Assembly: GCF_900143015.1 (NCBI RefSeq)
Contig: NZ_FSRT01000001.1
Coordinates: 1,488,001 to 1,552,000 of the forward strand
Direction of reading: 5' to 3'
From: Fibrobacter sp. UWB11
GTDB lineage: Bacteria; Fibrobacterota; Fibrobacteria; Fibrobacterales; Fibrobacteraceae
Length of the DNA stretch: 64,000 nucleotides
How positions within the stretch are numbered: position 1 is the stretch's first letter; each line of letters begins with the position of its first letter. The notes beneath the pieces are model-generated. The model was given only the letters and a program-made list of their open reading frames with translations, did no database searches and was not told where the DNA came from. Both the position numbers and the translations under genes were made by a program. Below, piece after piece: positions 8,271 to 37,564 of this stretch.

Positions 8271-8415
8271 AGTTAATCCTTTGGTTCTATGCCATTCGCG
8301 TTTTATCCCCAAACAACGAAAGACCATAACACCGAATTTAAATATATATCAATGATGGGCTAAATCGCAAAATGTAAGCAGAAAAGCATTGACGATTTGT
8401 CAAATGAGGTGTTAG

Positions 8416-9669
8416 CTAAGGCTCAAAGCAAGCCGGGATTTTGAGAGTCACGACTTGATTTAAAGATAAGTCTTCTTTGACGTACATAGCATGATATCGA
8501 TCAAACAACGTGTATATTGTCGGAAATTTAATCGGCTTTTTAGTGAATAGCGGCTCTATTTTTATACATTCCAAATAATTAATTCCGCTCGTAGCAAAGT
8601 CCTTCGTAAATCGGATTTCATCACAATGTTCTTTGATGATGTCAGAATAGCCGGCAATCTCAACAGAATCATTTTCACTTTTCTCTCCCTTACATTCCAT
8701 TCGGAAATATTCTCTAGAAAACGAAAGATGAACCTTTTCTGACTTGACAATTTCTTGTGCAACGACATAACTCCAAACATTCCGTGATTGTAATTCCGGA
8801 GGCAAATTATCAGAGAAATACATACAAGGAAGCGGATCCATAAGACGAGTTTGCACCGTTGGCGGCATCCAGGCATAATATAAAATGGACTTAACTTCTT
8901 CCAAAAAATCCTTATACTCGGAATGTTCCGTGTTCATCGAGACATTCGTAACGCGACCGCTATCGCCAAATGTAATCGTAGCATCAACAGAAAGATTAAA
9001 GCCATCTTTATAATATCGTTTGAGAGCTCGTTCAAGCCGCCAACCACAAGGCTTTTTTATACTCTGGATGAGTCCCGTTTCAAATTCACGCGGGCTCAAG
9101 GAGTCACCAAGATTTTTCCCTTCTTTAAGTTCGAATGTATCAACGTATATATCCACATTCAACACGGGTAGATTCGGGCGGGTATTGAATTCCGCCGTTT
9201 CACCCTCTGTAGAAATTTTTCGTTCCTTGAAAAACGCATAAACAGGATCCATTTTTTTCATTCTGCCGCTACCTTGTAACGAATATACAACGCCATCAAA
9301 CACAGTATCCCCAGAATAAGGATTTTCATAGTAGAACAAATAATCAATCAGTTTCCCTTTTTGAAATAAGCTAACAGATAAATTCGCTTCATCTTCAGAA
9401 ACATATCTGAGACTTCTATCATATTCAACATATTCTTCATCAAGCACAGTTGCCTTCGCAAATTTCTCGATTTCCTTCAAGCTATTCGTTGTGTAGGCCA
9501 AGCCCTGTGCATTATATACGACCATAGAATCTGCAAGCGCTAAAGATTCTTGCAAAAGTCGCGGTTTGCCAGGAATAAAATCTATAGAAACTTCATCGTG
9601 TTTCTGTTCGCAAGAGAGCAGAACACATGCAGCGAGGACGAGGAAAAAGAATTTGTAAAAACGATGCAT
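8416..9669 (-). CDS. Short lipoprotein paralogue lacking the DUF4419-like domain
   Basis: A 417-residue protein. The lipoprotein signal ends in VLLSC, but after about 30 residues the sequence jumps straight to the C-terminal module that in its neighbours begins near residue 420 (FIPGKPRLLQESLALADSM). That module carries the shared blocks FNLSVDATITFGDSGRV, YYAWMPP, FTKDFATSG and a C-terminal IPACFEP. Compared with the adjacent paralogues it looks like an in-frame deletion of the whole central domain. It starts 3 nt after the stop of the upstream copy, so it is probably the last gene of a three-gene operon. Function unknown; likely anchored on the periplasmic or outer face of a membrane. Confidence 0.85.
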   Translation of the reverse strand: MHRFYKFFFLVLAACVLLSCEQKHDEVSIDFIPGKPRLLQESLALADSMVVYNAQGLAYTTNSLKEIEKFAKATVLDEEYVEYDRSLRYVSEDEANLSVSLFQKGKLIDYLFYYENPYSGDTVFDGVVYSLQGSGRMKKMDPVYAFFKERKISTEGETAEFNTRPNLPVLNVDIYVDTFELKEGKNLGDSLSPREFETGLIQSIKKPCGWRLERALKRYYKDGFNLSVDATITFGDSGRVTNVSMNTEHSEYKDFLEEVKSILYYAWMPPTVQTRLMDPLPCMYFSDNLPPELQSRNVWSYVVAQEIVKSEKVHLSFSREYFRMECKGEKSENDSVEIAGYSDIIKEHCDEIRFTKDFATSGINYLECIKIEPLFTKKPIKFPTIYTLFDRYHAMYVKEDLSLNQVVTLKIPACFEP

Positions 9670-9672
9670 AAT

Positions 9673-14365: not shown

Positions 14366-14438
14366 ACCAACAATATAAAAACATAGCCTTGCAGAGATTT
14401 AATAAGGGAAAGTAAAATAATGTAGATACAAGAAATAA

Positions 14439-14470
14439 TGGATCCTATCGCCTTCGGCTCCAGGATGACA
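14439..14470. repeat. Dispersed GGATGACA-type intergenic repeat, copy a
   Basis: A short imperfect inverted repeat (GGATCCT ... CCAGGATGACA) between the lipoprotein gene and the M41-like gene. It ends in the GGATGACA-like motif shared with copies near 21.2, 25.2, 28.3, 49.2 and 59.3 kb. The sequence between the arms differs from the other copies. Confidence 0.6.
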
Positions 14471-14484
14471 TGGTCGAAACGGGA

Positions 14485-14976
14485 TTACTTACCGCTCATG
14501 ATGGCGGCGAGGTCGGCTCCACTCAAATTCGTCTTTTCGCTTAAGGCGGCAACGATTGCGGTGAGCGACTTTTGGCAAGCCATCATGAGATTGTAAACTT
14601 GTTCGACAACGTTTGTTTCGGCAAGCTGGTAATAATAGCAAGCCGCCTGGAAACTCTGGTAATCAGGGTCACTCCTGTAAAGCTCCATCGGGAGTTCTTT
14701 CATGACGGTGTCGAGGTCGCAGGCGAAATTTTTACGAATCAAGAAGTCCGACATGTGGCCTGCAATAGCGATGTGAGCGGCACCATCGAGCGAGCTTCCA
14801 GGCATACGCGTAGCGCTTGGTTTTTCCTTGGAATTATTGATTCTGACGTAATCAATCTGGCGCTTGAACAGGAATGCGATTAGAGCGTGGCCTGCCTCAT
14901 GGCGGCAAAGTTTTTCAAATTCTTGTTCACCGAAAAATTCAATTAAGTTTTCGCGAGTTAATGTTTGTTCTGACAT
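14485..14976 (-). CDS. Peptidase M41-like zinc protease domain protein
   Basis: A 163-residue protein with the zinc-binding signature CRHEAGHALIAFLF near residue 24-37, as in the protease domain of FtsH (M41), followed by helical sequence. There is no AAA+ ATPase and no membrane segment, so it is an isolated M41-like domain, shorter than the FtsH protease region. The GHMSDFLIRK and DPDYQ stretches may carry the third metal ligand, but I cannot place it with certainty. It overlaps the upstream alpha/beta hydrolase by 19 nt. The substrate is unknown. Confidence 0.75.
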   Translation of the reverse strand: MSEQTLTRENLIEFFGEQEFEKLCRHEAGHALIAFLFKRQIDYVRINNSKEKPSATRMPGSSLDGAAHIAIAGHMSDFLIRKNFACDLDTVMKELPMELYRSDPDYQSFQAACYYYQLAETNVVEQVYNLMMACQKSLTAIVAALSEKTNLSGADLAAIMSGK

Positions 14977-15566
14977 TTTTCAATCCACCTGTCTAAAAAA
15001 GCCATCTGTTCGTCGATATGGAACCAATGTTCGCCACCATCCATAATCGTGAGCGATGCGCCCACTTTTTGAGCAAAACCTTGCATCGTTTCAAGATCGG
15101 TCATATTGTCATTGGAGCCATACAAAATATGCGTCGGGATATTCCATTCGATGGGATTTTCTCGCACGTAGCAAAGGTATTTCCAAGAAAGCGTCTCGCC
15201 AAAGTTCGTCGCAATTTCACCTTTTTCGCGGAGTTCATCTTCGGAGACGTTCGCCCAAAGCATCATATTGCAAATGAGCTTTTCCAAGTTGACCATCGGC
15301 GAAATGAAATAAGCGTTCTTGATTCGCTTGCCTGCGAGCGCATTCATCGAGAAGAACGCTCCGATGCTATTTGCAATCAGGCTTACTTCGTCATAGCCCG
15401 CAGAAACGGAATCAAAATAAGACGAGAATTCTTCTTTGGCGTCCCAAGGAGTTTCGGACTTGTAATCAAAACCGATGACATCGCAGTTCGGGAAAAGAGG
15501 TTTGTAGTGATTCGCTTCGTCGGCGTTGCCGCCTTTCCCGTGAACATAAATAACGAGAGTTTTCAT
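14958..15566 (-). CDS. Small alpha/beta hydrolase
   Basis: About 202 residues from the ATG at 15566 (MKTLVIYVHGKGG); a start at 15602 is possible but adds an unlikely leader. It has the HG oxyanion motif, a serine nucleophile elbow in the form ANSIGAF, the acid region in YGSNDNMTD and a C-terminal His in GGEHWFHI. No signal peptide is visible, so it should be cytoplasmic. Members include esterases and thioesterases. It is coupled to the M41-like gene by overlap. A TATATTG element lies a short distance upstream. Confidence 0.8.
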   Translation of the reverse strand: MKTLVIYVHGKGGNADEANHYKPLFPNCDVIGFDYKSETPWDAKEEFSSYFDSVSAGYDEVSLIANSIGAFFSMNALAGKRIKNAYFISPMVNLEKLICNMMLWANVSEDELREKGEIATNFGETLSWKYLCYVRENPIEWNIPTHILYGSNDNMTDLETMQGFAQKVGASLTIMDGGEHWFHIDEQMAFLDRWIEKCQNKH

Positions 15567-15650
15567 TGTACTTTCACTTTTTTGCAACATGCAATATAAC
15601 AATATTTATGCAGGCATGGCAACAGCGATTAAACATCAGCAATTACGCTT

Positions 15651-17987
15651 TTATTCTTCCGCAAAGCAGGGCGGAATTTTAATAGAGACAAACAGGTCAC
15701 TCAGTTTTTTCAACGTTCTCTCACGATCTTCGTATTTATTTTTATTAAAACTAACTTTTATATCACCACGAATATTTTTAGCTGATTTTAATTTTTCATC
15801 TTTTTCATCGAACTTTTCACATTGATAACGATATATTTCACCGGTTGCAAGGTCTTTCGAAAAATCAATAGCGTTGCAAAGAGCGTAGTTCTTTCCTATA
15901 GTCCAAGCACCAAAGACCCAAACGGAATCTTTTGCAACAAGCCCATTCTGTTTGCACACCATTCGATAATCTCTTGATAAGGTTATACGAACTTTTATTT
16001 TGCCAACAATTTCTTGCGCAATTTTACGACCATGATCGCAATTAACTTTTGGAGGCATCCACGCATACTTCAAGATAGAACGAATTTCTTCCTGAAAAGA
16101 ACCGATTTTAGGTTTCAAGTCCATCAAAACAGAATCAACACGTCCTTCATCCTTATACGAAATCGTAGCCACAATAGAATCATTAAAATCATACTTATGA
16201 TGGCGATATATAGCCCGTTCAAGTCGCCAGCCACAAGATTCTCTCAAAGCCCCCATTATCCCTATTCTAAGGTCATCCATTTTTCCATCATCTTTTTTTC
16301 CATCTTTCAAAATAACAGTATCGACATAGATTTCAAGATTAAATTTGGGAAGATTCTTTTCATTTGAGAATTCATCGACTGTTCCGTTTATAGGAATTTT
16401 ACGCTGCTCGAAAAATTTTTTGATAGCAACATTCTTTTCCCAAAATCCAACTCCTTTTAACGAACGCATAGCACCATTACGATACTTTTTAGGATAGGCA
16501 TAATAAAGCAAATGGTCTTGCAATTCGCCTTTTCGATACAAATTAATCGACAAATTCGGTTCATTCCAATCATAGTCTTCCAGTATCCAAGAACCAGGTT
16601 CAAGATATTCCTCGTCTAAATAAGACACATCCGCAAAACGTTCAATTTCTTCAAGGTCATTGGTTGAATAAAGCAAGCCTTTTTCCCCGTAAACATTCAT
16701 GGAATCCGAAATTGCCAACATTTCATGCAGGCGGAGAGTTTTCCCCGGTATGTATTTTGTTTCTTTAGCGGTCTCCCTAAAATTCATCAAGCCATAGGCC
16801 ATAAGAGCATACCCTCTAGCCGCTTTCAACATTTTTGTCGTGGTATCGACTTGGATTCCAACAAAACCTGTATAAAGTTTTAAAGGAATATCTTTAGAAT
16901 AATGCCACTTCACATCTACAAACGTAATTCCCGATGGCACATCGTGAAAATACATCCGTTTATTCCAATCCGAATGCTTTACATAGGCAAACCCATCTCG
17001 AACAAATTCTTTCGTATAAGGCAAAAATCGAGAAATCCAGCCATCAAAGCTAGGGCTGCCGCATCCTTTGGGGTTGTAATATTTGTAAATACTTCTCCAA
17101 TGTTCTAAATTTATTTTACCATCAAAAACTTTGATAAATTCATCAAGTACAGGATTAAGACCTTTCGCCCACCACTTCATATTCAATTGCACGGCCAGTT
17201 TGTTAAAGGAATCCTTAAGCAAAATCCAATCCTCTTTAGTACCTTTAATCTTGATTTTGGGAATCCCGCAAGTAGTCCAAACATGATATGAATAGTATTC
17301 CGAGGCAACAGCCATTACCATAGTCCCTGAGATATTGTTATCTACCGGACTTGTTGTCGAAAATTTCGTCTTCAGCGGATTTCCCGTTTTTTTAGGCAAT
17401 TTAGACAGCAACGATTCATATAAGTTCGCGATTATCCAAAACCATTCATTATGCGTGGAATTATACGTCAATGAATTATCTACAATCGAAATTACAGTAT
17501 CGGCACCTGGAGCAACAAAACGATTTTTCAGAGCTTTACGATTGTTCTTTACATGGAGGCGAAAACCATCTAATATCATAAGCCAAATGTCATCAGGGCT
17601 AATTTCCATTGGGTAATGATTGGCATACGCGAGTGAAACAACATCAAGGAATGAAGATGATTTGGAACTTTTTTCAACAAATGGGCTTATAGAATCGGAA
17701 TAGGCATAGAAAATTTTAGTTTCATTCGTCAGATTTTCTTGGGGATAATGGGAAAAAATACGTGCAAAGCCGCCTTCTTCAACGGGGACTAGCGTCTCTT
17801 TAAAGGCACTATCGTGAACGCTCGTATCCACAACCATGACATACGCGCTCGTATCGCGCACAAAGCCTTCAAAGCTTCGAGTTGCTTTTGAAGAGGATTC
17901 AAGAACAGGTTCCGAAACCTTCGCTTCACAAGGATGCAGAACAGAGATGATAAAAGCAAGTAGAAAAAATTTATAGAGCGATTTCAT
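15651..17987 (-). CDS. DUF4419-like lipoprotein, copy 4
   Basis: About 778 residues from the ATG at 17987. It shares the full plan of the other copies: DIWLMILDGFRLHV, AVASEYYSYH, CGIPKIKIKGTKEDWILL, GFVGIQVDTT, then the C-terminal module from YIPGKTLRLHEMLAISDSM to KIPPCFAEE. The putative lipobox is SVLHPC, with Pro before the Cys, which is atypical; it may be poorly lipidated or simply secreted. It is separated from copies 1-3 by the two-gene hydrolase/protease cassette. A TATATTG element lies 5 nt before the ATG. Confidence 0.8.
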   Translation of the reverse strand: MKSLYKFFLLAFIISVLHPCEAKVSEPVLESSSKATRSFEGFVRDTSAYVMVVDTSVHDSAFKETLVPVEEGGFARIFSHYPQENLTNETKIFYAYSDSISPFVEKSSKSSSFLDVVSLAYANHYPMEISPDDIWLMILDGFRLHVKNNRKALKNRFVAPGADTVISIVDNSLTYNSTHNEWFWIIANLYESLLSKLPKKTGNPLKTKFSTTSPVDNNISGTMVMAVASEYYSYHVWTTCGIPKIKIKGTKEDWILLKDSFNKLAVQLNMKWWAKGLNPVLDEFIKVFDGKINLEHWRSIYKYYNPKGCGSPSFDGWISRFLPYTKEFVRDGFAYVKHSDWNKRMYFHDVPSGITFVDVKWHYSKDIPLKLYTGFVGIQVDTTTKMLKAARGYALMAYGLMNFRETAKETKYIPGKTLRLHEMLAISDSMNVYGEKGLLYSTNDLEEIERFADVSYLDEEYLEPGSWILEDYDWNEPNLSINLYRKGELQDHLLYYAYPKKYRNGAMRSLKGVGFWEKNVAIKKFFEQRKIPINGTVDEFSNEKNLPKFNLEIYVDTVILKDGKKDDGKMDDLRIGIMGALRESCGWRLERAIYRHHKYDFNDSIVATISYKDEGRVDSVLMDLKPKIGSFQEEIRSILKYAWMPPKVNCDHGRKIAQEIVGKIKVRITLSRDYRMVCKQNGLVAKDSVWVFGAWTIGKNYALCNAIDFSKDLATGEIYRYQCEKFDEKDEKLKSAKNIRGDIKVSFNKNKYEDRERTLKKLSDLFVSIKIPPCFAEE

Positions 17988-18147
17988 ACAGGCAATATAG
18001 CAATATTGCACTTTGTAGAGTCAAGAACTGATACCTTCTTTCAATTATGTTTATCGATCAATCTTCACCAGGAACACTGTCATTTTTCCAATCTACCGAA
18101 CATCCCGAATAAAAAAAGACTGAACAATTTCCATCTATTGAGCAATC

Positions 18148-19753: not shown

Positions 19754-20956
19754 TTAACAGTCAGTCTTCTGCGAATCGCACTTGAAGCCATAAATTATTG
19801 CAGCATCTTTTTTCGTTGCTGCATCTTGAGCACCGCACGGATAGCCATATTTCAAAGCAGCATCCTGAACACCGCAGGGATAACCGTACTTCAAAGCAGC
19901 TTCATTTGCACCACAGGGGTAACCGTACTTCAAAGCAGCATCTTGAACACCGCAGGGATAACCGTACTTCAAGGCAGCTTCATTTGCACTGCTCTTAAAG
20001 CCATAAATCATAGCGGCTTCTCTGTTAGAGGCTGCGTCTTGAGCTCCGCACGGATAGCCATACTTCAAAGCGGCATCTTGAACGCTGCATGGATAACCAT
20101 ACTTCAAGGCAGCTTCATTTGCACCACAGGGGTAACCGTACTTCAATGCAACATCACTTGCGCCGCAGGGATAACCGTACTTCAATGCAACATCACTTGC
20201 GCCACAGGGATAACCGTACTTCAAGGCGGCTTCATTTGCACTGCTCTTGAAACCGTAGATCATAGCAGCTTCTCTGTTAGAGGCTGCGTCTTGAGCACCG
20301 CAAGGATAGCCGTACTTCAAGGCTGCTTCATTGGTGCCGCACGGATAGCCATACTTCAAGGCAGCATCTTGAACGCTGCATGGATAACCATACTTCAAGG
20401 CAGCTTCATTTGCGCCACAGGGGTAACCGTACTTCAATGCAACATCACTTGCGCCGCAGGGATAACCGTACTTCAATGCAACATCACTTGCGCCACAGGG
20501 ATAACCGTACTTCAAAGCAACATCTTGAACGTTGCATGGATAACCATACTTCAATGCGGCTTCCGCCGAACCGAGAACAAGGCCATAGGGCATAGCAGGG
20601 CCAGCAACAGCTCTGATTGTAGCATCACTATTTTCGCTAAACTTTGCAAATTCTTCGGAATCGCTTGGGATCACATTCAGAAGCACTGTATGCGTCTTTT
20701 TCGCGGCGGACATATCAGACAAGTTAACCAATGTGAATTCAAGTTCAGCCTTGTCTTCCGTTGCGGAAACAGCACCAAACCAAAATCTTTGGACAACAGG
20801 AGCAATCGTTGCTGCCATCGGAGCTGTTTCTGTACTCAGCAGAGCAATTCCCTGCGGAAGTTTGGTCAGTGCCCAACCATAATTTGTAGAACCAAGCATT
20901 GATTGCAGTTCAATCGAGAAAGATTGACCCTGCAATACAACCATTTCATTTGCCAT
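19754..20956 (-). CDS. Tandem KYGYPC-repeat protein, putative multi-core RiPP precursor
   Basis: A 400-residue cytoplasmic-looking protein without signal peptide. Residues 1-97 look like an inhibitor I42 (chagasin)-type beta domain: QGQSFSIEL, STNYGW, QRFWFGAV and a closing HTVLLNV. Residues 98-133 are a linker with one degenerate unit (MPYGLVLGSAEA). From 134 to the end there are 16 units of 13 residues, consensus ALKYGYPCGAxDA, with three cysteine-poor units (AMIYGFKSSANEA twice, AIIYGFKCD at the end) placed after 6-residue spacers such as ASNREA. All 18 Cys lie in the repeat part and none in the N-terminal domain. It precedes the radical SAM/SPASM maturase in the same unit, and an AGAGG ribosome-binding site is present. 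I infer a multi-core peptide substrate; a repetitive metal-binding or structural protein is the alternative. Confidence 0.8.
   Translation of the reverse strand: MANEMVVLQGQSFSIELQSMLGSTNYGWALTKLPQGIALLSTETAPMAATIAPVVQRFWFGAVSATEDKAELEFTLVNLSDMSAAKKTHTVLLNVIPSDSEEFAKFSENSDATIRAVAGPAMPYGLVLGSAEAALKYGYPCNVQDVALKYGYPCGASDVALKYGYPCGASDVALKYGYPCGANEAALKYGYPCSVQDAALKYGYPCGTNEAALKYGYPCGAQDAASNREAAMIYGFKSSANEAALKYGYPCGASDVALKYGYPCGASDVALKYGYPCGANEAALKYGYPCSVQDAALKYGYPCGAQDAASNREAAMIYGFKSSANEAALKYGYPCGVQDAALKYGYPCGANEAALKYGYPCGVQDAALKYGYPCGAQDAATKKDAAIIYGFKCDSQKTDC
19757..20557 (-). repeat. 39-bp coding tandem repeat array (16 KYGYPC units plus three YGF units)
   Basis: The 39-nt units are nearly identical at DNA level and stay in frame. 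A larger block (units 2-5 plus spacer and YGF unit) recurs as units 8-11 plus spacer and YGF unit, showing a second, higher-order duplication. Such arrays can change copy number by slippage or recombination. Confidence 0.95.
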
Positions 20957-21035
20957 AAAATACCTCTTTTTGGTGAATTATTCAAAATTCATCATTTATC
21001 ATAAAAAAATATTTTACGGTTGGATAATTGTAATA

Positions 21036-21078
21036 AAAATATAACAAAACTTTGTAGACAATACTTTGTCATACAAAG
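21036..21078 (-). promoter_or_regulatory. Putative promoter and operator of the repeat-protein gene
   Basis: On the minus strand a TATATTTTT element (complement of 21036-21044) lies about 80 nt before the start codon. Just upstream are CTTTGT-type hexamers: plus-strand CTTTGT at 21050-21055 and 21064-21069, and ACAAAG at 21073-21078, the last two forming a perfect inverted repeat with a 3-nt centre. The placement over the upstream promoter region suggests a regulator site; the regulator is unknown. Confidence 0.45.
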
Positions 21079-21106
21079 CACATAAACTATTAATAATAAG
21101 CTATAT

Positions 21107-21139
21107 AAAAAACCGCCCCTGCGGTCAAGCAGGAAGCGG
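21107..21139 (-). terminator. Rho-independent terminator after purL
   Basis: Minus-strand stem CCGCTTCCTGC / GCAGGGGCGG with a TTGACC loop and six Ts. It ends purL transcription just upstream of the repeat-protein promoter, and is nearly identical to the terminator at 18148-18180. Confidence 0.85.
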
Positions 21140-21172
21140 ATTTATTTGCGTGTATGGTGCGGCTTATCCAAT

Positions 21173-21204
21173 GGCGATCCCGGCATAAAGCCGGGATGAC
21201 ATGC
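21173..21204. repeat. Dispersed GGATGACA-type intergenic repeat, copy b
   Basis: A palindromic element with ATCCCGGC / GCCGGGAT arms followed by GACA. About 30 bp are identical to copy f at 59269-59300. It lies directly after the purL stop codon, upstream of the terminator. Confidence 0.8.
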
Positions 21205-21211
21205 AAGGGGA

Positions 21212-24200
21212 TTACCCTACGAAGATACGGCCGTTGCGGAAGAGCTGCATCCACGGGCCATCTTCACCCCATTCTGCCGGGTGCCAAGAGTATTGGCAGG
21301 TGCGGAACACGCGTTCCGGGTGCGGCATCATCACGAGTGCACGACCATCTTCAGAGCAGAGGCCGTTGATGCCAAACGGAGAACCGTTCGGGTTGAGCGG
21401 ATAGCGTTCGGTGTATTCGTGCTTGCCGTCGACATAGCGGAGTGCCACGAGACCCGTCTTGAGGCTGGCTTCGGCAGCTTCGCGGCTTGCGAATTCAGCA
21501 CGGCCTTCACCGTGAGCAACAGCAATCGGGAGCACGGAGCCCGCCATGCCCTTGAGGAGCACTGCCGGCGTATCTTCAACCTTCAAAGAGCAGTAGCGAG
21601 CTTCGAAGCGTTCGGAGATGTTCTGCACAAAGCGCGGCCAGTGCTTAGCGCCCGGAATCAAATCCTTGAGGTTCGAGACCATCTGGCAGCCGTTGCAAAC
21701 GCCGAGCGTGAAGGTATCCTTGCGGTTGAAGTAAGCTTCGAATTCAGCGCGAGCCTTCGGGTTGAACAAGATGCTCTTGGCCCAGCCTTCGCCAGCACCG
21801 AGAACGTCACCGTAGCTAAAGCCACCGCAAGCAACGAGACCGTTGAAGTCCTTGAGGCTTACGCGACCGGAGAGGATGTCCGTCATGTGAACGTCGATAG
21901 ATTCGAAGCCAGCCTTTGCAAATGCAGCAGCCATTTCGAGTTCGCCGTTGACGCCCTGTTCACGGAGAATAGCCATCTTCGGGCGGCTTGCGTAATCCTT
22001 GATGACCTTGGCGCTAGCAGCGAGATCGAACGTGACCTTCGGCGTGATACCCGGATCGTCCTGTTCGAGCTTGAGCTTGTACTCGCTTTCGGCACATTCC
22101 GGATTGTCACGGAGAGCGGCAATGCGGCGAGTCGTATCACTCCAGATGGCGCGGAGGTCAGAGAGGCCTTCGGCGTAGTCGCCAATCACAATGTTATACG
22201 TATCGTTGAGCTTACCGATTTCAGAAACGGTATCGCCGAGACCGACAGCTTCGAAAGCAGCCTTCACTGCAGCGAGGTCTGCGTTTGCGACCTGGAGAAC
22301 GGCACCGAGTTCTTCGTTGAACAAAGCGTCAATCACATTGCCCTTGAGAGCTGTAGCGTCGAGCGTCACACCCACGTGACCGGCAAATGCCATTTCGACA
22401 ACCGTCGTAAAGAGGCCACCATCGCTCTTGTCGTGGTAAGCGAGAATCTTTCCATCGGCATTGAGCTTCTGGATCGTTTCGAAGAAGGCGCGGAGTTCCT
22501 TAGCGGAATCGACATCCGGAGCCTTGTCGCCGAGGAGGTTGTAAACCTGAGCGGCAATGGATGCGCCCATGCGGTTCTTGCCACGAGCGAGGTCCACGAG
22601 CACAAGCGTCGTGTCCTTCTTCTGCAAGAGCTGCGGCGTGAGCGTCTTGCGAACGTCAGCGCACGGAGCAAAGGCACTAATCACAAGAGAAATCGGAGCG
22701 GTCACGCGGTGGCTACCCTTTTCGTCCTGCCACACGGTGCTCATACTCATGGAGTCCTTACCGACCGGAATCGTAATGCCAAGTTCCGGGCAGAGTTCCA
22801 TACCGATGGACTTCACGGCTTCGTACAAGTCAGCGCCATCGCCTTCGTAGTTCGGCGTAGCCATCCAGTTTGCGGACAAGTTTACGCGGCCCATATCCGG
22901 AACGCAAGCGGCAGCCATGTTCGTGAGAGATTCTGCAACCGTCATACGGGCTGCAGCGGCCGGAGAAATGAGAGCAATCGGAGCGCGTTCGCCCATACTC
23001 ATGACTTCGCCTTCGTACGTGTCGAGAGTTGCACTCGTCACGGCGCAGTCAGCAACCGGCACCTGCCACGGGCCCACCATCTGGTCACGGCAAATCATAC
23101 CCGTCACGGAACGGTCACCAATGGAAATCAAGAACGTCTTATCTGCAACGGTCGGGTTAGCAAGCACGCGATGTGCAAGGTCCTTCACCGTCACACCAGC
23201 CGGCACCACCTGAGAAGAGAGCGGGCGCTTCTGGGACTTTTCATTGCGGATCATGCGCGGCGGCTTACCGAGGAGCACGCCGAGCGGCATGTCAATCGGA
23301 GTCGTACCGAAGTGCTTGTCCGTAAGGGTCAAGTGCTTTTCAGGGATAGCCTCGCCCACAACTGCGTACGGGCAGCGTTCACGCTTACAGATAGCGTCGA
23401 ACACATCGAGCTTGTCACCAGCAATAGCGATAACATAACGTTCCTGGGATTCGTTACTCCAGATTTCGAACGGGCTCATGCCCGGTTCGTCGTTCGGCAC
23501 ATTGCGGAGTTCAAACTTACCGCCGAGGCCGCCATCGTTCACGAGTTCCGGGAAGGCGTTCGAAAGTCCACCTGCACCCACATCATGAATAAATGTAATC
23601 GGGTTTTCTTCGTTCATCGCCCAGCAGCGGTCGATGACTTCCTGGCAGCGGCGTTCCATTTCCGGGTTTTCACGCTGCACAGAAGCAAAGTCGAGAGATT
23701 CATTACCGGCACCGTTAGCAACAGAGCTAGCTGCACCGCCACCAAGACCGATCAACATGGCCGGACCACCAAGAACGATCAAGTGGTCACCCGGATCGAT
23801 GTGGCCCTTTTCAATGTGCTGGTGCTTGATGTTACCGAGACCGCCAGCAAGCATAATCGGCTTGTGGTAACCACGAACTTCGGTACCCTTTTCAGAAGAA
23901 ACTTCCTGTTCGAACGTACGGAAGTAACCGAGGATGTTCGGACGACCATATTCGTTGTTGAATGCGGCACCACCGAGCGGGCCGTCAATCATAATGTCGA
24001 GAGCAGAAGCGATGCGGGACGGACTACCAAAGTCCTTTTCCCACGGCTGAACTGCACCCGGAAGCTTGAGGTTCGAAACGCTGAAGCCCGTAAGGCCAGC
24101 CTTCGGCTTGGAACCCTTACCCGTAGCACCTTCGTCACGGATTTCACCACCACTACCCGTAGCGGCACCCGGGAACGGAGAAATTGCAGTCGGATGGTTG

Positions 24201-25087
24201 TGGGTTTCGACCTTCATCAAGATGTCGACTTCTTCGTTGTGGAAGTCGTACTTGTTGTTGCGCGGGTCAGCGTAGAAACGGCCAGCCGTTGCACCCTTCA
24301 TCACAGCGGCGTTATCCTTGTAAGCGCTGAAGATGTTGGAATTGTGGAGCTGGTAAGTGTTCTTGATCATCTGGAACAAGGACTTGTCCTGCTTCACGCC
24401 GTCGATGGTCCATTCAGCACCGAACACCTTGTGGCGGCAGTGTTCCGAGTTGGCCTGAGCGAACATGTAAAGTTCCACGTCGGTCGGGTTGCGCTTGAGT
24501 TCAGTGAAATTCTTGACGAGATAATCGATTTCGTCGGCGGAGAGGGCAAGGCCCATTTCCTTGTCGGCCTTCACGAGAGCATTGCGACCTTCGGTAAGCA
24601 CCGGAATCACGTTCAGCGGACGCGGTTCTTCCTTGCTGAAGAGCACTTCGAGAGATGCTGTATCGGCAAACACGGCCTGAGTCATGCGGTCGTGAATCTT
24701 GGCCGTAATCTTTTCACGGGCGCCAGCTGGAGCAGCACCTTCAAATTTCACGTAGTAAGCAATGGCGCGTTCGATGCGCTTGATTGCCGGGAGGCCGCAA
24801 ATGTGAGCGATATCGGTAGCCTTCGAGCTCCACGGGCTGATCGTACCCGGACGCGGGCAGACCACAAAGAGTTCACCTTCGAGCGCCTTGACTTCGCGCA
24901 TCGGGCCGTAATGAAGGACCTTTTCGAGCGTTTCCTTTTCGGAAGCGGTCAGGTCGGCGGACAGATCCACCACATGGAGGAATTCGGCATAGACAGATGC
25001 AACCGGAATTCCAGCGGCCTTAAAATCAGATGAAAGCTTTTGCAGACGGAAATCCGACAGAGCCGGAGTACCACGAAGAATGAGCAT
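21212..25087 (-). CDS. purL: Phosphoribosylformylglycinamidine synthase, single-chain
   Basis: A 1291-residue large-type FGAM synthase that uses glutamine and ATP in purine synthesis. It has the N-terminal domain, two AIRS-like ATP-binding halves ([18 protein letters not shown] and [11 protein letters not shown] mark the active sites), and a C-terminal glutaminase with nucleophile Cys in LGVCNGCQ and His in [10 protein letters not shown]. This length is typical of the proteobacterial form; Gram-positives use split PurLQS. A TATATTTG element lies 34 nt before the start and an AGAGG ribosome-binding site is visible. It is probably monocistronic, bounded by its own terminator. Confidence 0.97.
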
Positions 25088-25120
25088 TTTGACCTCTTTT
25101 AGCCTAAATATTTACCGCCC

Positions 25121-25128
25121 CAAATATA
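25121..25128 (-). promoter_or_regulatory. TATATTTG -7-like element upstream of purL
   Basis: Minus-strand TATATTTG matches the TAnnTTTG -7 element known from Bacteroidetes promoters and sits 34 nt before the purL start. No convincing TTTG -33 partner was identified. Confidence 0.45.
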
Positions 25129-25153
25129 GCAATTTGAGGATATTTTCAAACGG

Positions 25154-25177
25154 AAAAAGCTCCGCAAAATGCGGAGC
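25154..25177 (-). terminator. Rho-independent terminator after hisD
   Basis: Perfect 8-bp stem GCTCCGCA / TGCGGAGC around an AAA loop (plus-strand reading), with five Ts following on the minus strand. It closes the cimA-hisD unit just upstream of the purL promoter. Confidence 0.85.
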
Positions 25178-25208
25178 CGTTTCATAAAATGTAAATAGAA
25201 CTGTGTAA

Positions 25209-25286
25209 GGCGATGCCCGCTCGGAGGCGGGCATGACATCGCGACCGAAGAGGCCGGGATGACAACCCTTCGACAGGCTCAGGGAC
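25209..25286. repeat. Dispersed GGATGACA-type intergenic repeat, copy c (compound)
   Basis: Two elements in a row: GATGCCCGC/GCGGGCATGACA arms, then GGCCGGGATGACA, then CCCTTCGACAGGCTCAGGGA, itself a palindromic motif. It lies between the hisD stop codon and its terminator. Confidence 0.7.
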
Positions 25287-25295
25287 CTTTCACAA

Positions 25296-26585
25296 TTACA
25301 GTCTCTTGAGAACTGCGGCGGCGTGGTGGATGAAGCCTTCTTCATTAGCCACGACAGCGATTGCCTTCGCATTCTTCTTGATAGCCTTTTCGCTATACTT
25401 GATGATGCTCATGCGCTTGAGGAAGTCATAGACGCCGAGCGGGCTGAAGAAACGACCCGTGCCGTTCGTGGGCAAAACGTGGTTCGGGCCTGCAAAGTAG
25501 TCGCCCACCGGTTCAGAAGACCACGGACCGATAAACACAGCACCCGCATTTTCGATCTGGGCAGCCATCGATTCGGCTTCGTCCGTCATGATTTCCATGT
25601 GTTCCGGAGCAATAGCATTTGCAATTGCCACACCATCGAACCAATCCTTCACCACGAGGATGCGACCGAAGTTGTCGAGCACCTTCGTCAAAAGTTCCTT
25701 CTTCGGAGAATTTTCAACCTGGATATCCACACATTCGCTAATCATCTGTGCGGTTTCCATGTTGTCCGTAATGCAGATAGCGGCTTCAAAGCCAGAACCG
25801 TGTTCCGCCTGGCTCAAAAGGTCGGCAGCGACAAAATCCGGATCACAGGTGTTATCAGCAAGCACGAGCACTTCGGACGGGCCTGCCACCATGTCGATAT
25901 CAACAATGCCAAAAACTTCCTTCTTCGCGACAGCGGCAAAGACGTTACCCGGGCCCACAATCTTATCAACGCGTTCCACGACAACCTTGCCCTTAGCATC
26001 CTTGGCACCGTAAGCGAGCATGCCGATAGCCTGAGCGCCACCGATGTGGTAAACTTCAGTAATGCCAAGTTCGCAAAGCACAAAAGCCACAGCGCGGTTG
26101 ATTTCGCCCTTGATCGGAGTCACGACAACGATGTCCTTGACACCAGCGACAATGGCCGGAACCGCATTCATGATGACCGTGCTCGGGTAAATGCCAGCAC
26201 CACCCGGAACGTAGAGACCCACGCGCTTCATCGGGCGGATACGCTGACCGAGAACCACACCGTCCTTGCCTTCCATGAGCCAGGAATCTTCCATCTGGTT
26301 CACGTGGAAATCGCGGACGTTCTTAATAGCCTGCTTGAGTGCACGCTGCATTTCGGGCGGGCACTTGGCAGCAGACTTCTTGATTTCGGCTTCAGAAACG
26401 CGGAGGTTCTTGCCCTTCAGACCATCGAACTTTTGGGCGTATTCAACAGCCTTCGCATAACCGCCGTTCTTGATGTCGGCGAGAATGTCCATAACCTTGT
26501 CGTGAATTTCCTTGCTCGGAGCAACTTCACGACCACAAATTCTATCAATCTCTTGAGACTTCGGAGTAACTTTTACGATTTTCAT
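25296..26585 (-). CDS. hisD: Histidinol dehydrogenase
   Basis: A 429-residue enzyme for the last two steps of histidine synthesis (histidinol to histidine, NAD-dependent, zinc). Family signatures are VPGGAGIYPSTVIMNAVPA, VDMVAGPSEVLVLAD and the zinc-site region LLSQAEHGSGFEA, with the catalytic Glu-His in IAPEHMEIM. It lies 31 nt downstream of the citramalate synthase gene with which it is probably co-transcribed. No other his genes are in the window. Confidence 0.96.
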   Translation of the reverse strand: MKIVKVTPKSQEIDRICGREVAPSKEIHDKVMDILADIKNGGYAKAVEYAQKFDGLKGKNLRVSEAEIKKSAAKCPPEMQRALKQAIKNVRDFHVNQMEDSWLMEGKDGVVLGQRIRPMKRVGLYVPGGAGIYPSTVIMNAVPAIVAGVKDIVVVTPIKGEINRAVAFVLCELGITEVYHIGGAQAIGMLAYGAKDAKGKVVVERVDKIVGPGNVFAAVAKKEVFGIVDIDMVAGPSEVLVLADNTCDPDFVAADLLSQAEHGSGFEAAICITDNMETAQMISECVDIQVENSPKKELLTKVLDNFGRILVVKDWFDGVAIANAIAPEHMEIMTDEAESMAAQIENAGAVFIGPWSSEPVGDYFAGPNHVLPTNGTGRFFSPLGVYDFLKRMSIIKYSEKAIKKNAKAIAVVANEEGFIHHAAAVLKRL

Positions 26586-26616
26586 TTTAACAGACCTTCT
26601 ATTTTAAAACTTTTGC

Positions 26617-28257
26617 CTACTTCTTGGGCGAAGCCTTGTCCGCATCATTGCTCGGTGTTCCCACATCAATGTGCTTGTAAGCGTTTGCAATGACCTTGTC
26701 TTCAATCAGAATCTTGTACGTAAGGCCATCGACAAAGGCGGTCCAGCAAGCTTCGATGATGTTGCTCGAAACACCGACCATGTTCCAGTAGCCGTGTTCA
26801 TCGCCAAACGTTGTCCACACGCGAACAGTCGCATCGGATGCAACGTTGGAACCGAGCACTCGCACCTTGAAGTCGTCGAGGCGCACGCTTTCCATGCACG
26901 GGAAGAACGGCAAAAGAGCCTTACGAAGAGCGGCATCGAGAGCATTCACCGGGCCATCACCTTCGCTCACCTGATGGCTGATTTTGTCGCCAACCTGGAG
27001 CTTGACCGTTGCCTGCGATACAGAAACACCCTGCGGAGTCTTATCTTCAATCACGCGGTAGTTGAGCACCTTGAACGGTTCCTTGACCATTCCCAAGTGG
27101 CGGTACACAAGCAACTTGAAACTTGCTTCAGCGCTGTCAAAATGCCAGCCTGCGTTTTCGCGTTCCTTGATTTCTTTGAGGAGGCTTGCTACCAGCGGAT
27201 CCTTCTTGTCGATACCCGGCTTGATGGCCTTGAGTTTTTCCACAACAAGAGAACCACCCGCCTGATCGCTCGTCACGAAAACGCGGTCATTGCCCACGGA
27301 ATGTGGGTCGATATGTTCAAAACTGCGAGAAACCTTCATGACGCCATCGATATGCGCACCACCCTTATGGGCAAATGCGGCATCGCCCACATATGGAGCA
27401 TGCACGTCGCTCGGCAAGTTCACAATCTGGTCGATGTTGCCGCTAAGCTGGCGCAAATGGCTCAACTTTTTAGCAGCAGCAAAATCGCGATCCATCTTAA
27501 ACTTCAAATCGGCAGCAATAGTCGTGAGGTTTGCATTACCGCAACGTTCACCGTAGCCGTTCACCACGCCCTGCACCATCACGCAACCGGCCTTCACGGC
27601 GTAGAGCGAGTTCGCAACCGCAAGTCCGCTATCGTTATGCACATGGATACCTAGCGGAGTAGAAATATGCTTTTGCACATCCGCTATGATTTTTTCAATT
27701 TCCCACGGCATCGTTCCGCCGTTCGTATCGCAAAGCACGATACAATCAGCATGGCCCTTTTCTGCGGCACGGAGCGTTTCAATCGCGTATTCCGGATTTG
27801 CCTTGTAGCCATCAAAAAAGTGCTCGGCATCGTAAATCACTTCCTCAGAATATTCCTTGAGGTATGCCACAGAAGACTCGATCATGTCGAGGTTTTCCGT
27901 AAGCGTCGTGCGAATCACGTCCGTTACATGCAAATCCCAGCTCTTACCAAAAATCGTCTTGACCGGAGCTTCGGACTTGATCAAAGCCTGCAAAAGCGGA
28001 TCGTTTTCCGGCAAGATTTTTGGACGACGCGTAGAACCGAAAGCGGCAATTTTCGCGTGCTTGAGCTTTACATCCTTGATAAGCTTGAAAAATTCTTCGT
28101 CAGTCGGATTACTCGGGTTCGGCCAACCGCCCTCGATATAATCAAATCCAAAATGGTCCAAAATTCGTGCAATCTGCACCTTGTCGGCTAAAGAGAGACT
28201 TATTTTACGGTCTTGGTTACCGTCACGGAGAGTTGTATCGTATAAAAGGACTTTCAT
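26617..28257 (-). CDS. cimA: (R)-citramalate synthase, CimA type
   Basis: A 546-residue member of the HMGL-like/LeuA superfamily. The N terminus LLYDTTLRDGNQDRKIS with YIEGGWPNPSNPTDEEFF fits the CimA group (TIGR00977-type) rather than isopropylmalate synthase. The metal-binding HVHNDSGLAVANSL and GYGERCGNANL are present, and residues about 400-530 form the regulatory LeuA dimerisation domain. It condenses pyruvate and acetyl-CoA to citramalate in the threonine-independent isoleucine route, probably with isoleucine feedback. Co-transcribed with hisD. Confidence 0.92.
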   Translation of the reverse strand: MKVLLYDTTLRDGNQDRKISLSLADKVQIARILDHFGFDYIEGGWPNPSNPTDEEFFKLIKDVKLKHAKIAAFGSTRRPKILPENDPLLQALIKSEAPVKTIFGKSWDLHVTDVIRTTLTENLDMIESSVAYLKEYSEEVIYDAEHFFDGYKANPEYAIETLRAAEKGHADCIVLCDTNGGTMPWEIEKIIADVQKHISTPLGIHVHNDSGLAVANSLYAVKAGCVMVQGVVNGYGERCGNANLTTIAADLKFKMDRDFAAAKKLSHLRQLSGNIDQIVNLPSDVHAPYVGDAAFAHKGGAHIDGVMKVSRSFEHIDPHSVGNDRVFVTSDQAGGSLVVEKLKAIKPGIDKKDPLVASLLKEIKERENAGWHFDSAEASFKLLVYRHLGMVKEPFKVLNYRVIEDKTPQGVSVSQATVKLQVGDKISHQVSEGDGPVNALDAALRKALLPFFPCMESVRLDDFKVRVLGSNVASDATVRVWTTFGDEHGYWNMVGVSSNIIEACWTAFVDGLTYKILIEDKVIANAYKHIDVGTPSNDADKASPKK

Positions 28258-34797: not shown

Positions 34798-35670
34798 CTA
34801 ATTGCTAAACGGGCAGCCCGGATGGTAATCTAAATCAGCTTCGGCTTCTTCGATGGAAGGCGCGGCATCATACAAAAAACCCGCCAAAGCCTGCTCGGCC
34901 GAAACACGTTCCCCGCCAATCCAGTTTTTCAGAACGGCAAGTCGCTTCGAGATCCACCACGGAAGCGGAATCATCATGTGGCGCATTCCAGCAGATTTAA
35001 GCACATACGAAGCCATTTCCGCCATCGTCATGACAGTCGAACCCGCAAGAGCGTATGTTTTCCCGACCGCTTTTGATTCAAGGCCAGCAACAGCGATCCC
35101 CTTGACCAAATCCACACTGCAAACCGGGCGTTTGAGGCACTTGCCTCCCCCCGGCATAAAATAGAGCGGGAACTTTTTCACGTAATCGCGGAACATGTTG
35201 AATTCCACGCCACCGCCATCGCCAATTACAAGCGTAGGTCGCACAATCGTCCAATCCAAACCAGACGCATGCACAAGCGCTTCGCCCTTCTTTTTGCTTT
35301 CGCCATAGGGCGTAAGCACCGGATATGTCACGGAAATGCTAGAAACATAAAGGAAGCGACGCACGCCAGCAAGTTTGCAAGCCTCAATAACATTGCGCGT
35401 TCCCCACGTATTCACGTGTTCAAAAGCACCACGTTTTGTTGATAAAAGAATTGCCGCCAAGTGATAGACGACATCCACCCCTTCAAACGCACTTTTTATC
35501 GATTCAAAATCGGTGACATCGCCGTAACAGACATCCACCTCAGCAGGCAAGGATTTTGCCAAAGAATCGCCCGGAAGCGTCAAGACGCGGACACACACTC
35601 CCCGTGCTATAAGTTCCCGGCACAACGCCTTCCCTACGACGCCGGCGCCACCCGTCAATAAAGCAATCAT
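34798..35670 (-). CDS. NAD-dependent epimerase/dehydratase family protein
   Basis: About 290 residues from the ATG at 35670; a frame to 35724 would overlap dnaA. It has the Rossmann motif TGGAGVVGKAL, the DVVYHLAA block, and catalytic Tyr-x3-Lys as YGESK. It resembles extended short-chain dehydrogenases acting on nucleotide sugars or isoprenoid/sterol-like substrates. It starts 1 nt after the dnaA stop codon, so the two are probably translated from one mRNA. The substrate is unknown. Confidence 0.87.
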   Translation of the reverse strand: MIALLTGGAGVVGKALCRELIARGVCVRVLTLPGDSLAKSLPAEVDVCYGDVTDFESIKSAFEGVDVVYHLAAILLSTKRGAFEHVNTWGTRNVIEACKLAGVRRFLYVSSISVTYPVLTPYGESKKKGEALVHASGLDWTIVRPTLVIGDGGGVEFNMFRDYVKKFPLYFMPGGGKCLKRPVCSVDLVKGIAVAGLESKAVGKTYALAGSTVMTMAEMASYVLKSAGMRHMMIPLPWWISKRLAVLKNWIGGERVSAEQALAGFLYDAAPSIEEAEADLDYHPGCPFSN

Positions 35671-35671
35671 G

Positions 35672-37132
35672 CTAGGCTTCCAGCATATAACGGATATCCT
35701 GAATGCGCCTTGCGAGCGACGCATCCTTTTCCATCTGCTTTTTTAGGGAATTTATGGCGGCGATTACAGTGGCATAGTCCCTGCAGAACATCGCGCCGAT
35801 ATTCTGGAGAGAATCGGTCGTGAGTTCGCGGCAAAGGAACATAGCCACCTTGCGGGGCATAGAAATCGCAGCAGACTGTCGCTTGGACGAGAGTTCGCAA
35901 ACTTCAACGCGGTATTCCAACGCTACAGCCTCAATAATGTTCTTGGACGTAAGTTCCACATGGCCACCATGTTCCGATGGAGCCACAAGACGCTTGACGC
36001 TATTCAAGTTCAAATCAGCCTTGCAGAACATGTTCATAGCGCCAAGGAAGTTCAAAAGACCTTCAATCAAGCGCACATTCTTGCGAGGCGGCATCGAAAG
36101 GTAACGGCAAATTTCTTCACGGTCAGCCTTTGCAAACGGCAAGTCTTCGGATTTCTTGCTAATCAAGTGCATGCGAGTGAGCAAATCCGGTTCATCAAGG
36201 CCCACAGCAACACAGGATTCAAGCGGAGTAAGGAGTTTCTTGGAAATGCTCGGAATCGAGGATCTCGAAGAGTTGCGTTCGTTATCCGTATCGACAACCT
36301 TGAACTTAGACGGATGGCGGTCGCAAGAAATCACCACCTGCTTGCCTTCGGCGCGCAAATGCCTAATCAAAATGGCAAGGCGTTCCTGCGTCCACAAGCC
36401 CTTTTCCAAAAGTTGAACGTCATCAAGCAACAGAATATCGCAAAGCTCATAACGTTCACGGAACTTCTGGGCAAGTTCACGTACATTGCCCGTCTTATTG
36501 TGAAGAGCCGATGCCATTGCAGTCGCATCACGCAAAAAATCGTATGCATGGCAATAGACGATCGAATAATCAGGATGGTTCTTCTGGATTTTTGCAGCAA
36601 TGGATTGCAACAAATGAGTCTTGCCCAAGCCGCTTTCGCCATAAACAAACAGCGGATTCAACGACGGGTCGCCCGGATTTTCGGCCACAGCCTGGCATGC
36701 GCGGAAAGCCGTGGAATTGCACTCCCCTTCGACAAAGTTTTCAAAAGTATAGCGTGCATAAAGCGATAAAGCCTGTTTCGGACGCTTTACCGGTTTCGGA
36801 GCTTGTACAACCTTCGGGATAACCGGCACCGTGAGCTTGATTTCGGGAATCGGGTCCGAAGGAGCAATCTGACGGATGCGATAATCAACAAATTCACTAC
36901 CAAATACAGCCGTAAAGGACTTGCGCAATAAATCGCCATAATGGGAATTCACCCAGTTCTCGCGAAGCTCGTCAGGAACAGTAAGCAAGGCATAGCCATT
37001 GCACATTCCCTCATAACCAAGAGCGTCAAGAATTACGGCACCAAAAAAGTCCTTGCATTCCGAACGCACGCGGTCGAGCACCTGTTGCCAGGGCGACTCT
37101 GCAATATCCAACAAAGAAACAGTATTATCCAC
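35672..37132 (-). CDS. dnaA: DnaA-like replication initiator, divergent
   Basis: A 486-residue protein with DnaA layout: domain I (about 1-85), a linker, AAA+ domain with Walker A GESGLGKTH (165-173) and Walker B ILLLDDVQ (233-240), sensor II region KNVRLIEG, and a C-terminal helix-turn-helix (about 395-486). Two conserved features differ. The DNA-contact signature usually written GGRDHTTV reads FCRDYATV (449-456), and the arginine-finger SRF segment appears as LTPLE after a 15-20-residue Ser/Arg insertion (about 282-297). It may be the chromosomal initiator of this lineage or a paralogue. Genes on both sides lie on the same strand, with no dnaN nearby. Confidence 0.85.
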   Translation of the reverse strand: MDNTVSLLDIAESPWQQVLDRVRSECKDFFGAVILDALGYEGMCNGYALLTVPDELRENWVNSHYGDLLRKSFTAVFGSEFVDYRIRQIAPSDPIPEIKLTVPVIPKVVQAPKPVKRPKQALSLYARYTFENFVEGECNSTAFRACQAVAENPGDPSLNPLFVYGESGLGKTHLLQSIAAKIQKNHPDYSIVYCHAYDFLRDATAMASALHNKTGNVRELAQKFRERYELCDILLLDDVQLLEKGLWTQERLAILIRHLRAEGKQVVISCDRHPSKFKVVDTDNERNSSRSSIPSISKKLLTPLESCVAVGLDEPDLLTRMHLISKKSEDLPFAKADREEICRYLSMPPRKNVRLIEGLLNFLGAMNMFCKADLNLNSVKRLVAPSEHGGHVELTSKNIIEAVALEYRVEVCELSSKRQSAAISMPRKVAMFLCRELTTDSLQNIGAMFCRDYATVIAAINSLKKQMEKDASLARRIQDIRYMLEA

Positions 37133-37140
37133 GATCTAAA

Positions 37141-37564
37141 AAACCAATCAAGAGTATAAAAGAGCAAGCAAAAAATAAGAAAGGAAAATTGAAGAACAAG
37201 CAACCAAACGAAAAAAATTTTTTATTGTCCGTTTTTTGTTCAAAAACGGCAATTTTTTTTTGAAAACACTTTTTATCCGACTTTTTCCAGTTTACACCAC
37301 CCTTACGAACGTATGTGTAACAAAATTATCACTTACTATTAGCACAAGTTATCAACAGGTATTTTTTCAAACATCCCTTGACAAGATTTTTCTTACTTTA
37401 AGCATACAAAATATTATACAAATGGCGAAATTCGTTCAAAAACGCCATTTTTTTGTCATAAGAAAAATGTAACTTGATGAAAATCAACAAGTTACATGCA
37501 CAGTTTGTTACCACAAATGGAAGCCTAGACCCACTGCAAAAACATGGTGAGAGAACATTACAAC
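37141..37564. other. AT-rich region upstream of dnaA with repeats
   Basis: No gene is seen in these 424 bp. They contain two direct repeats of about 24 bp (37237-37260 and 37432-37455, core GTTCAAAAACG), a DnaA-box-like TTATCAACA at 37349-37357, TTATCCGA at 37272-37279, and a perfect 10-bp inverted repeat at 37467-37497. It probably holds the dnaA promoter; an origin is possible but not shown. Confidence 0.6.
37467..37497. repeat. Perfect inverted repeat upstream of dnaA
   Basis: Arms ATGTAACTTG and CAAGTTACAT separated by 11 nt; an alternative inner pairing TTGAT/ATCAA is also possible. It could be an operator or an RNA hairpin. Confidence 0.8.

Follow-up and report, generated by a model that had tools for sequence, protein, structure and literature searches.

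A second, ancient DnaA lineage alongside the canonical DnaA of Fibrobacterota, and its altered form in Fibrobacter

Introduction

A dnaA gene whose product departs from E. coli DnaA in its DNA-contact and arginine-finger regions raises the question of whether this protein starts replication in Fibrobacter or is a paralogue with another role; both possibilities had been left standing by an earlier sequence-only reading. The gene lies in a window, by which we mean the whole stretch of 64,000 nucleotides analysed here, that corresponds to C1:1488001-1552000 of a 3.76 Mb genome in nine contigs (G000). About 95% of bacterial genomes carry a single dnaA, and a survey of 1,067 genomes listed twelve genera with two, Chlamydia, Lawsonia, Desulfovibrio, Pirellula and Fibrobacter among them (PMC3080875). 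In our literature search, which mostly covered sources outside subscription journals, the Fibrobacter paralogue was found only as a copy count. No description of the second protein's residues, of its retention across the phylum or of the box array upstream of its gene was found there, and within the literature found these features, like the protein itself, appear to be new.

The window encodes a DnaA-like protein with an intact ATP site and altered contact residues

The gene, here called dnaA2, was compared with E. coli DnaA (sequence from NC_000913), which served as the reference for residue numbering. The following features were located.

35672..37132, minus strand: dnaA2, encoding an AAA+ DnaA paralogue of 486 aa with a GTG start (domain I, a short linker, domain III AAA+ and domain IV HTH; ORF, Pfam and AlphaFold2)
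36611..36643 (approximate, from residue numbers), minus strand: intact Walker A, YGESGLGKTH, residues about 164-173 (alignment)
36411..36441 (approximate), minus strand: intact Walker B, ILLLDDVQ, with D237/D238 (alignment)
36215..36310 (approximate), minus strand: insert of ~16 residues, VVDTDNERNSSRSSIP, and after it the box VII helix, here SKKLLTPLES, with Arg281 changed to Lys and Arg285 to Pro (alignment)
35745..35960 (approximate), minus strand: domain IV HTH, with Arg399 changed to Gln, one Gly lost, His434 changed to Tyr and Thr435 to Ala; Arg407 and Asp433 are kept (alignment)

The product matched Bac_DnaA (PF00308) at 142-145 bits and Bac_DnaA_C at 71.3 bits, and DnaA_N at a sub-threshold 22.9 bits. 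AlphaFold2, run on an alignment of 39 sequences, predicted a DnaA fold with good confidence (mean pLDDT 84.6) and modelled the insert as a small two-strand element ahead of the box VII helix. Fold searches returned solved DnaA structures as top matches, the nearest being those of B. subtilis, A. aeolicus and T. maritima, and nothing unexpected. The protein thus resembles DnaA (TIGR00362, or PF00308 with PF08299) in its four-domain layout and AAA+ core, and Walker A (GESGLGKTH), Walker B (LLLDDVQ), sensor 1 and sensor 2 are all normal in comparison to E. coli. It differs from DnaA, however, in falling below the TIGR00362 equivalog cut-off (309.8 bits against 343.9; the other DnaA of the same genome, DnaA1, scores 459), in carrying the insert, in not lying at an origin, in coexisting with a canonical DnaA, and in the contact residues described next. 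Tested DnaA2 proteins of other families pass the same cut-off.

The altered box-recognition signature noticed in the sequence-only reading was borne out by the alignment: FGGRDHTTV of E. coli corresponds to F-CRDYATV in the window, so that over the longer signature FGGRDHTTVLHA is replaced by FCRDYATVIAA, with one Gly missing and the changes H434Y and T435A. The replacement of the arginine-finger segment after an insertion was likewise confirmed, as E. coli box VII, EDRLKSRFGW, aligns with SKKLLTPLES (R281K, R285P). To these we add a change that had not been listed and that matters as much, namely the minor-groove Arg399, which is Gln in the window (KRRSRS in E. coli, KRQSAA in DnaA2). In E. 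coli DnaA, R285, R281, R227, L290 and K243 are required for interaction between domains III, and the R399A and T435M mutants are defective in box binding (PMC5742627). Arginine-finger mutants of DnaA from S. elongatus, H. pylori and D. radiodurans still bind nucleotide and have lost strand separation (PMC8287927).

The replaced residues are fixed or nearly so in Fibrobacter and dnaA2 is under purifying selection

We assessed the same positions in 38 Fibrobacter DnaA2 sequences. Arg285 is absent from all of them (0/38, mostly Pro), whereas it is present in 57/57 DnaA1. Position 399 is Gln in 38/38, position 434 is Tyr in 37/38 and position 435 is Ala or Ser in 38/38; DnaA1 has Arg, His and Ser there. 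In place of Arg281 there is mostly Lys, in place of Arg227 mostly Glu and in place of Val211 mostly Thr, and in the DnaA2 genus group, which also holds three sister-genus sequences, Lys243 is mostly Gly and Leu290 is Val. Lys178, Asp235, Asp236, Asp269, Arg334 and Arg407 are invariant in 38/38, and Lys408 is fixed in 38/38. Since the altered residues recur in all or nearly all of 38 genomes, they are not sequencing errors. The alignments show that the cis ATP site of Fibrobacter DnaA2 is complete, and that the residues by which DnaA contacts the ATP of a neighbouring subunit, binds the single strands of the origin and reads the box are lost.

Across the phylum, most DnaA2 proteins carry His434Tyr, while Arg285 and Arg399 are kept in most families other than Fibrobacter. 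As read from these sequences, DnaA2 has changed stepwise, with His434Tyr common phylum-wide and the further replacements in Fibrobacter. The change of His to Tyr had been taken as a sign of an altered role; the change itself is real, but it carries little diagnostic weight. A scan of 84,980 genomes for FGGRDY[ST]TVI gave 30 stretches, Treponema and Clostridia included, and in nine genomes of Treponema, Spirochaetaceae and Clostridia the Tyr434 copy is the sole DnaA found (L170, L173, L178 and L188 in Treponema and Spirochaetaceae; L176, L179, L181, L187 and L195 in Clostridia). The arginine finger is present in those Tyr434 copies that were read. The idea that His434Tyr alone marks the loss of initiator function is thus ruled out by these otherwise canonical sole DnaA proteins.

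In the same close genome pairs, dN/dS was 0.05-0.11 for dnaA2 and 0.003-0.02 for dnaA1; dnaA2 is under strong purifying selection, yet roughly ten times less constrained than dnaA1. Among the Fibrobacter copies, conservation of DnaA2 is highest in domain IV (64%, versus 54-58% for the other parts), and this domain therefore probably retains a binding function, for DNA or for a partner.

Two dnaA genes are retained throughout the phylum

Two proteins of the window's genome exceed the PF00308 cut-off, DnaA2 and a canonical DnaA1 at C1:1471136 (198.9 bits), and the next match is far lower. The two genes are 53 kb apart. The DnaA1 protein has SRFSWG, Arg at position 399 and FGGKDHSTV, so a second dnaA, which had been suggested as something to look for, does exist and is the canonical one. 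As there is no third PF00308 protein over the cut-off, this genome has no separate Hda.

A PF00308 match was found in 162 of 168 Fibrobacterota genomes, and two or more copies in 86 of the 89 good ones (at least 90% complete, at most 5% contaminated). In a maximum-likelihood tree of 78 proteins, all 39 DnaA2 rows fall on one side of a branch with an SH-aLRT of 99, and DnaA1 together with DnaA of other phyla on the other side. This tree came from a short search with few outgroups, and several of its long branches were flagged; because its root is unresolved, it is compatible both with duplication within the phylum and with acquisition from outside. These data indicate that dnaA2 belongs to an ancient DnaA lineage that coexists with DnaA1, the initiator, throughout Fibrobacterota. 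The alignments also show that the altered residues of the window protein are not common to all DnaA of the phylum. In two sister genera (f1g2 and f1g4; L156:6424-7458 and L157:6249-7280) it is DnaA1 that seems to be reduced, to ~345 aa, with domain I apparently missing and SRL in box VII.

A second DnaA is also known from Chlamydiae and a few other genera, and in Waddlia neither of the two dnaA genes lies at the GC-skew minimum (PMC2878342). The comparison of DnaA2 with these proteins covers copy number and position.

DnaA1 occupies the classical origin neighbourhood in early-branching families, and dnaA2 is not at a GC-skew switch

In early-branching families the DnaA1 gene has rnpA, yidC, mnmE and mnmG on one flank and dnaN on the opposite one, an order that Pfam confirmed in G005. 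The adjacent dnaN had Pfam support at L164, L010 and L029 as well, and was also present by inspection at L014 and L020. In about eleven early-branching loci the gap between dnaA1 and dnaN holds clusters of boxes of the TTATCAACA/TTATCCACA type. Because of this classical neighbourhood, DnaA1 is the orthologue of the standard initiator, and gene order and boxes mark it as the initiator of the phylum.

In the window's class the neighbourhood of dnaA1 is broken up. The sequence-only reading had noted that no dnaN lies near dnaA2, and this is correct, the only dnaN of the genome being on another contig (C2:742603); the meaning attached to it does not hold, however, as the canonical dnaA1 of this genome also lacks a neighbouring dnaN.

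No GC-skew sign change was seen at the window's dnaA2, and the skew minimum is not there. Of ~37 dnaA2 loci in which skew was measured, nearly all likewise showed no clear sign change within 6 kb of the gene. In G144, a single-contig relative, skew switches from negative to positive near 1.42 Mb, with dnaA1 at 0.79 Mb and dnaA2 at 2.39 Mb. In G000, C4, C6 and the initial 1.25 Mb of C1 have positive skew, while C2, C3 and most of C1 past 1.28 Mb have negative skew; both dnaA genes lie 190-250 kb beyond the positive-to-negative, terminus-type switch near 1.28 Mb of C1. Neither dnaA is thus at a skew switch in either genome, and no origin of G000 could be pinned down from skew over the contigs. 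Judged by that terminus-type switch, both genes of G000 are nearer to the terminus than to the origin.

A DnaA-box array upstream of dnaA2 is reduced to one clear box in Fibrobacter

Comparison of loci revealed the following elements in front of the window's gene.

37343..37357, minus strand: conserved DnaA-box element TGTTGATAACTTGTG upstream of dnaA2, with the box TTATCAACA on the plus strand (locus comparison)
37377..37384, minus strand: TTGTCAAG, promoter-like (-35-like) by sequence, preceding the box in most Fibrobacter loci (locus comparison)
37125..37133, minus strand: CGTGGATAA, matching a DnaA box at 8/9 positions and covering the GTG start codon; not conserved within the genus (box matching)

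In Fibrobacter, TTGTCAAG is followed about 20 bp on by TGTTGATAASTTGTG, whose core GTTGATAA.TTGTG is exact in 32/38 dnaA2 loci. This 15-mer has two exact copies in the genome. The one not upstream of dnaA2 (G000:C3:482970-482984, L241) occupies a short intergenic gap, flanked by two minus-strand genes, close to the end of C3, and is a possible DnaA site. Upstream of Fibrobacter dnaA1, TATCAACA and TGTTGATA form an inverted pair spaced 33-35 bp apart, which is invariant in 15/15 genomes (directly upstream of dnaA1 at L006:9700-9825 and L220-L233). Because this pair is invariant, the DnaA box of the genus is probably YTATCAACA, and the arrangement suggests that dnaA1 is autoregulated through it. 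The consensus TTWTNCACA occurred 9 times in the window against 7.5 expected, a count that is uninformative since the Fibrobacter box differs. Outside Fibrobacter, dnaA1 has essentially no upstream boxes (one relaxed site in one genome).

In early-branching families, a head-to-tail array of DnaA boxes at offsets 0/14/25/36/47 stands where Fibrobacter has its box. In eight aligned loci, the boxes at offsets 14, 25, 36 and 47 scored on average 8.75, 6.25, 8.5 and 7.0 of 9, compared with 2.8 elsewhere. Most of twelve early-branching loci have, in addition, two boxes of the TGTTGATAACATGTTAACAA type, 11 bp apart, across the dnaA2 start codon, and the position of CGTGGATAA matches that of these tandem boxes. 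The 0/14/36 pattern was found upstream of dnaA2, independently obtained named contigs included, with only two weaker sites elsewhere in 2.8 Mb of sequence enriched in dnaA loci, the set to which this rarity applies; shuffled sequence gave none. The window's gene retains the first array box, which is the one clear box left in Fibrobacter.

The array resembles the cooperative arrays of low-affinity DnaA sites in E. coli oriC, which are same-orientation 9-mers 2 bp apart (PMC4451416), although the shared spacing concerns the last four sites, the first Fibrobacterota gap being 5 bp. Unlike the E. coli arrays, it fronts a dnaA paralogue, has no skew switch and is not an origin. The array together with the start-codon boxes (L126-L129, L136-L139) has an oriC-like layout, and this had led us to consider the upstream region of dnaA2 as oriC itself; we rejected the idea, as skew has the same sign on both sides at nearly all loci.

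The gene neighbourhood of dnaA2 varies between lineages

The window has the following gene next to dnaA2.

34798..35670, minus strand: NAD(P)-binding epimerase-like gene, starting 1 nt past the dnaA2 stop codon (gene comparison)

Fibrobacter and two sister genera keep these two genes together. In early-branching families dnaA2 lies beside a divergent DUF5610 (PF18433) gene, often followed by mlaD, fliD and fliS (L122, L127, L129, L132, L137-L139), a link to flagellar genes. We considered the neighbourhood as a clue to function and set it aside, since there is no stable partner: DUF5610 and flagellar genes in early-branching families, tol-pal in the class and the epimerase in Fibrobacter. In two other stretches of the window (8001-18000 and 20001-28000) G+C falls to 0.385-0.41 and then climbs to 0.53-0.55, against about 0.47 in the rest; these are possible acquired segments.

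Discussion

DnaA2 is very probably not an initiator in Fibrobacter. The lineage-specific initiator that had been proposed is unlikely there because the residues for ATP-DnaA oligomers and for origin opening are gone. The other proposal, a paralogue with a different role, is well supported by the presence of a second, canonical dnaA, by a skew minimum that lies elsewhere and by residues that the phylum does not share. Our main reading, to which we give a probability of about 0.5, is that DnaA2 is an ATP-binding, non-initiating paralogue that is itself controlled by DnaA and modulates DnaA1. The protein would no longer start replication and would bind ATP either as a lone subunit or in the terminal position of a chain. 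We infer contact with DnaA1, which could be modulated through mixed interactions involving domain I and the ATP-side face; because DnaA2 cannot offer an arginine finger, it might cap or poison the DnaA1 oligomer, and it may also, or instead, bind a changed DNA site. Its expression would be set by DnaA, as suggested by the box array (in early-branching families) or the remaining first box (in Fibrobacter) in the promoter region. Taken together, these steps would place initiation under feedback control in a lineage in which the genome searched lacks Hda. Two counterpoints belong to this reading: a regulator acting purely by protein-protein contact may be too simple a picture given the conservation of domain IV, and in Fibrobacter the putative control by DnaA would operate through one clear box.

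Hda, the proteobacterial inactivator of DnaA (TIGR03420), offers a comparison, being also a DnaA-derived, non-initiating AAA+ paralogue, as is proposed here for DnaA2 with its action on DnaA. However, Hda lacks domain IV and bears a clamp-binding motif at its N-terminus, whereas DnaA2 has domains I and IV (Bac_DnaA_C is present). As read by eye, the N-terminus of DnaA2 has a conserved NTVSLLD in which the Gln seen in known clamp motifs is missing. The Hda model gave 55 bits against a cut-off of 194.8, and the box VII Arg, the Hda-type finger that stimulates hydrolysis of DnaA-bound ATP, is absent in Fibrobacter DnaA2.

The strongest competitor to a modulator of DnaA1 is a dedicated transcription factor, whose HTH, with Gln399, Tyr434 and Ala435, would read a different site and control other genes with ATP as a co-signal. 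The high conservation of domain IV fits this idea, Gln399, Lys408 (38/38) and Tyr434 (37/38) look like changed specificity and not like decay, and the early-branching gene has DUF5610, mlaD, fliD and fliS for neighbours. Those neighbours, however, change from lineage to lineage, through tol-pal to the epimerase, and suggest no stable target, and no DnaA2 site was found; we consider this explanation unlikely, though worth keeping in view. It is quite improbable that DnaA2 is a second functional initiator acting at its own upstream array, perhaps under special conditions. Early-branching DnaA2 does keep R285 and R399, passes the DnaA equivalog cut-off and stands behind a dense array with start-codon boxes, but the skew sign near dnaA2 is steady in the window as at nearly all ~37 loci, the rnpA/dnaN-type locus holds DnaA1, and in Fibrobacter the array is down to one box and all checked residues for ATP-DnaA assembly and box reading are replaced.

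The remaining explanations are less probable again. DnaC and DnaI, which assist loading of the replicative helicase, are AAA+ relatives of DnaA, and DnaA2 keeps domain I, so a similar task could be imagined for it; yet the DnaI model gave only 26.5 bits against a cut-off of 228, and the genome encodes DciA (54.9 bits), which replaces DnaC/DnaI in most bacteria, Fibrobacteres included (PMC5109545). With DciA present we rejected the helicase-loader role as very improbable. That dnaA2 is a decaying, functionless relic is the least probable of all: its protein evolves roughly ten times faster than that of dnaA1, but dN/dS stays at 0.05-0.12, the ATP-site residues are invariant, the reading frame is intact in same-genus matches and the gene is present in nearly all complete genomes of the phylum.

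The modulator reading can be extended to a phylum-wide anti-initiator, which we put forward tentatively and regard as somewhat doubtful. Here the array would act as a switch for dnaA2, rising ATP-DnaA1 would set the amount of its look-alike, and this would cap or displace DnaA1 filaments, in Fibrobacter without an arginine finger. If it is true, feedback based on a paralogue would do the job of Hda/RIDA in a lineage that has no Hda. A DnaA paralogue retained over the whole history of the phylum, its gene behind a switch-like box array, also shows, as a natural experiment, what an initiator may lose once a twin takes over its duty. In a cultivated rumen bacterium, it may be tested how initiation is limited without Hda, and whether a DnaA that lacks the arginine finger can terminate chains in DnaA filaments.
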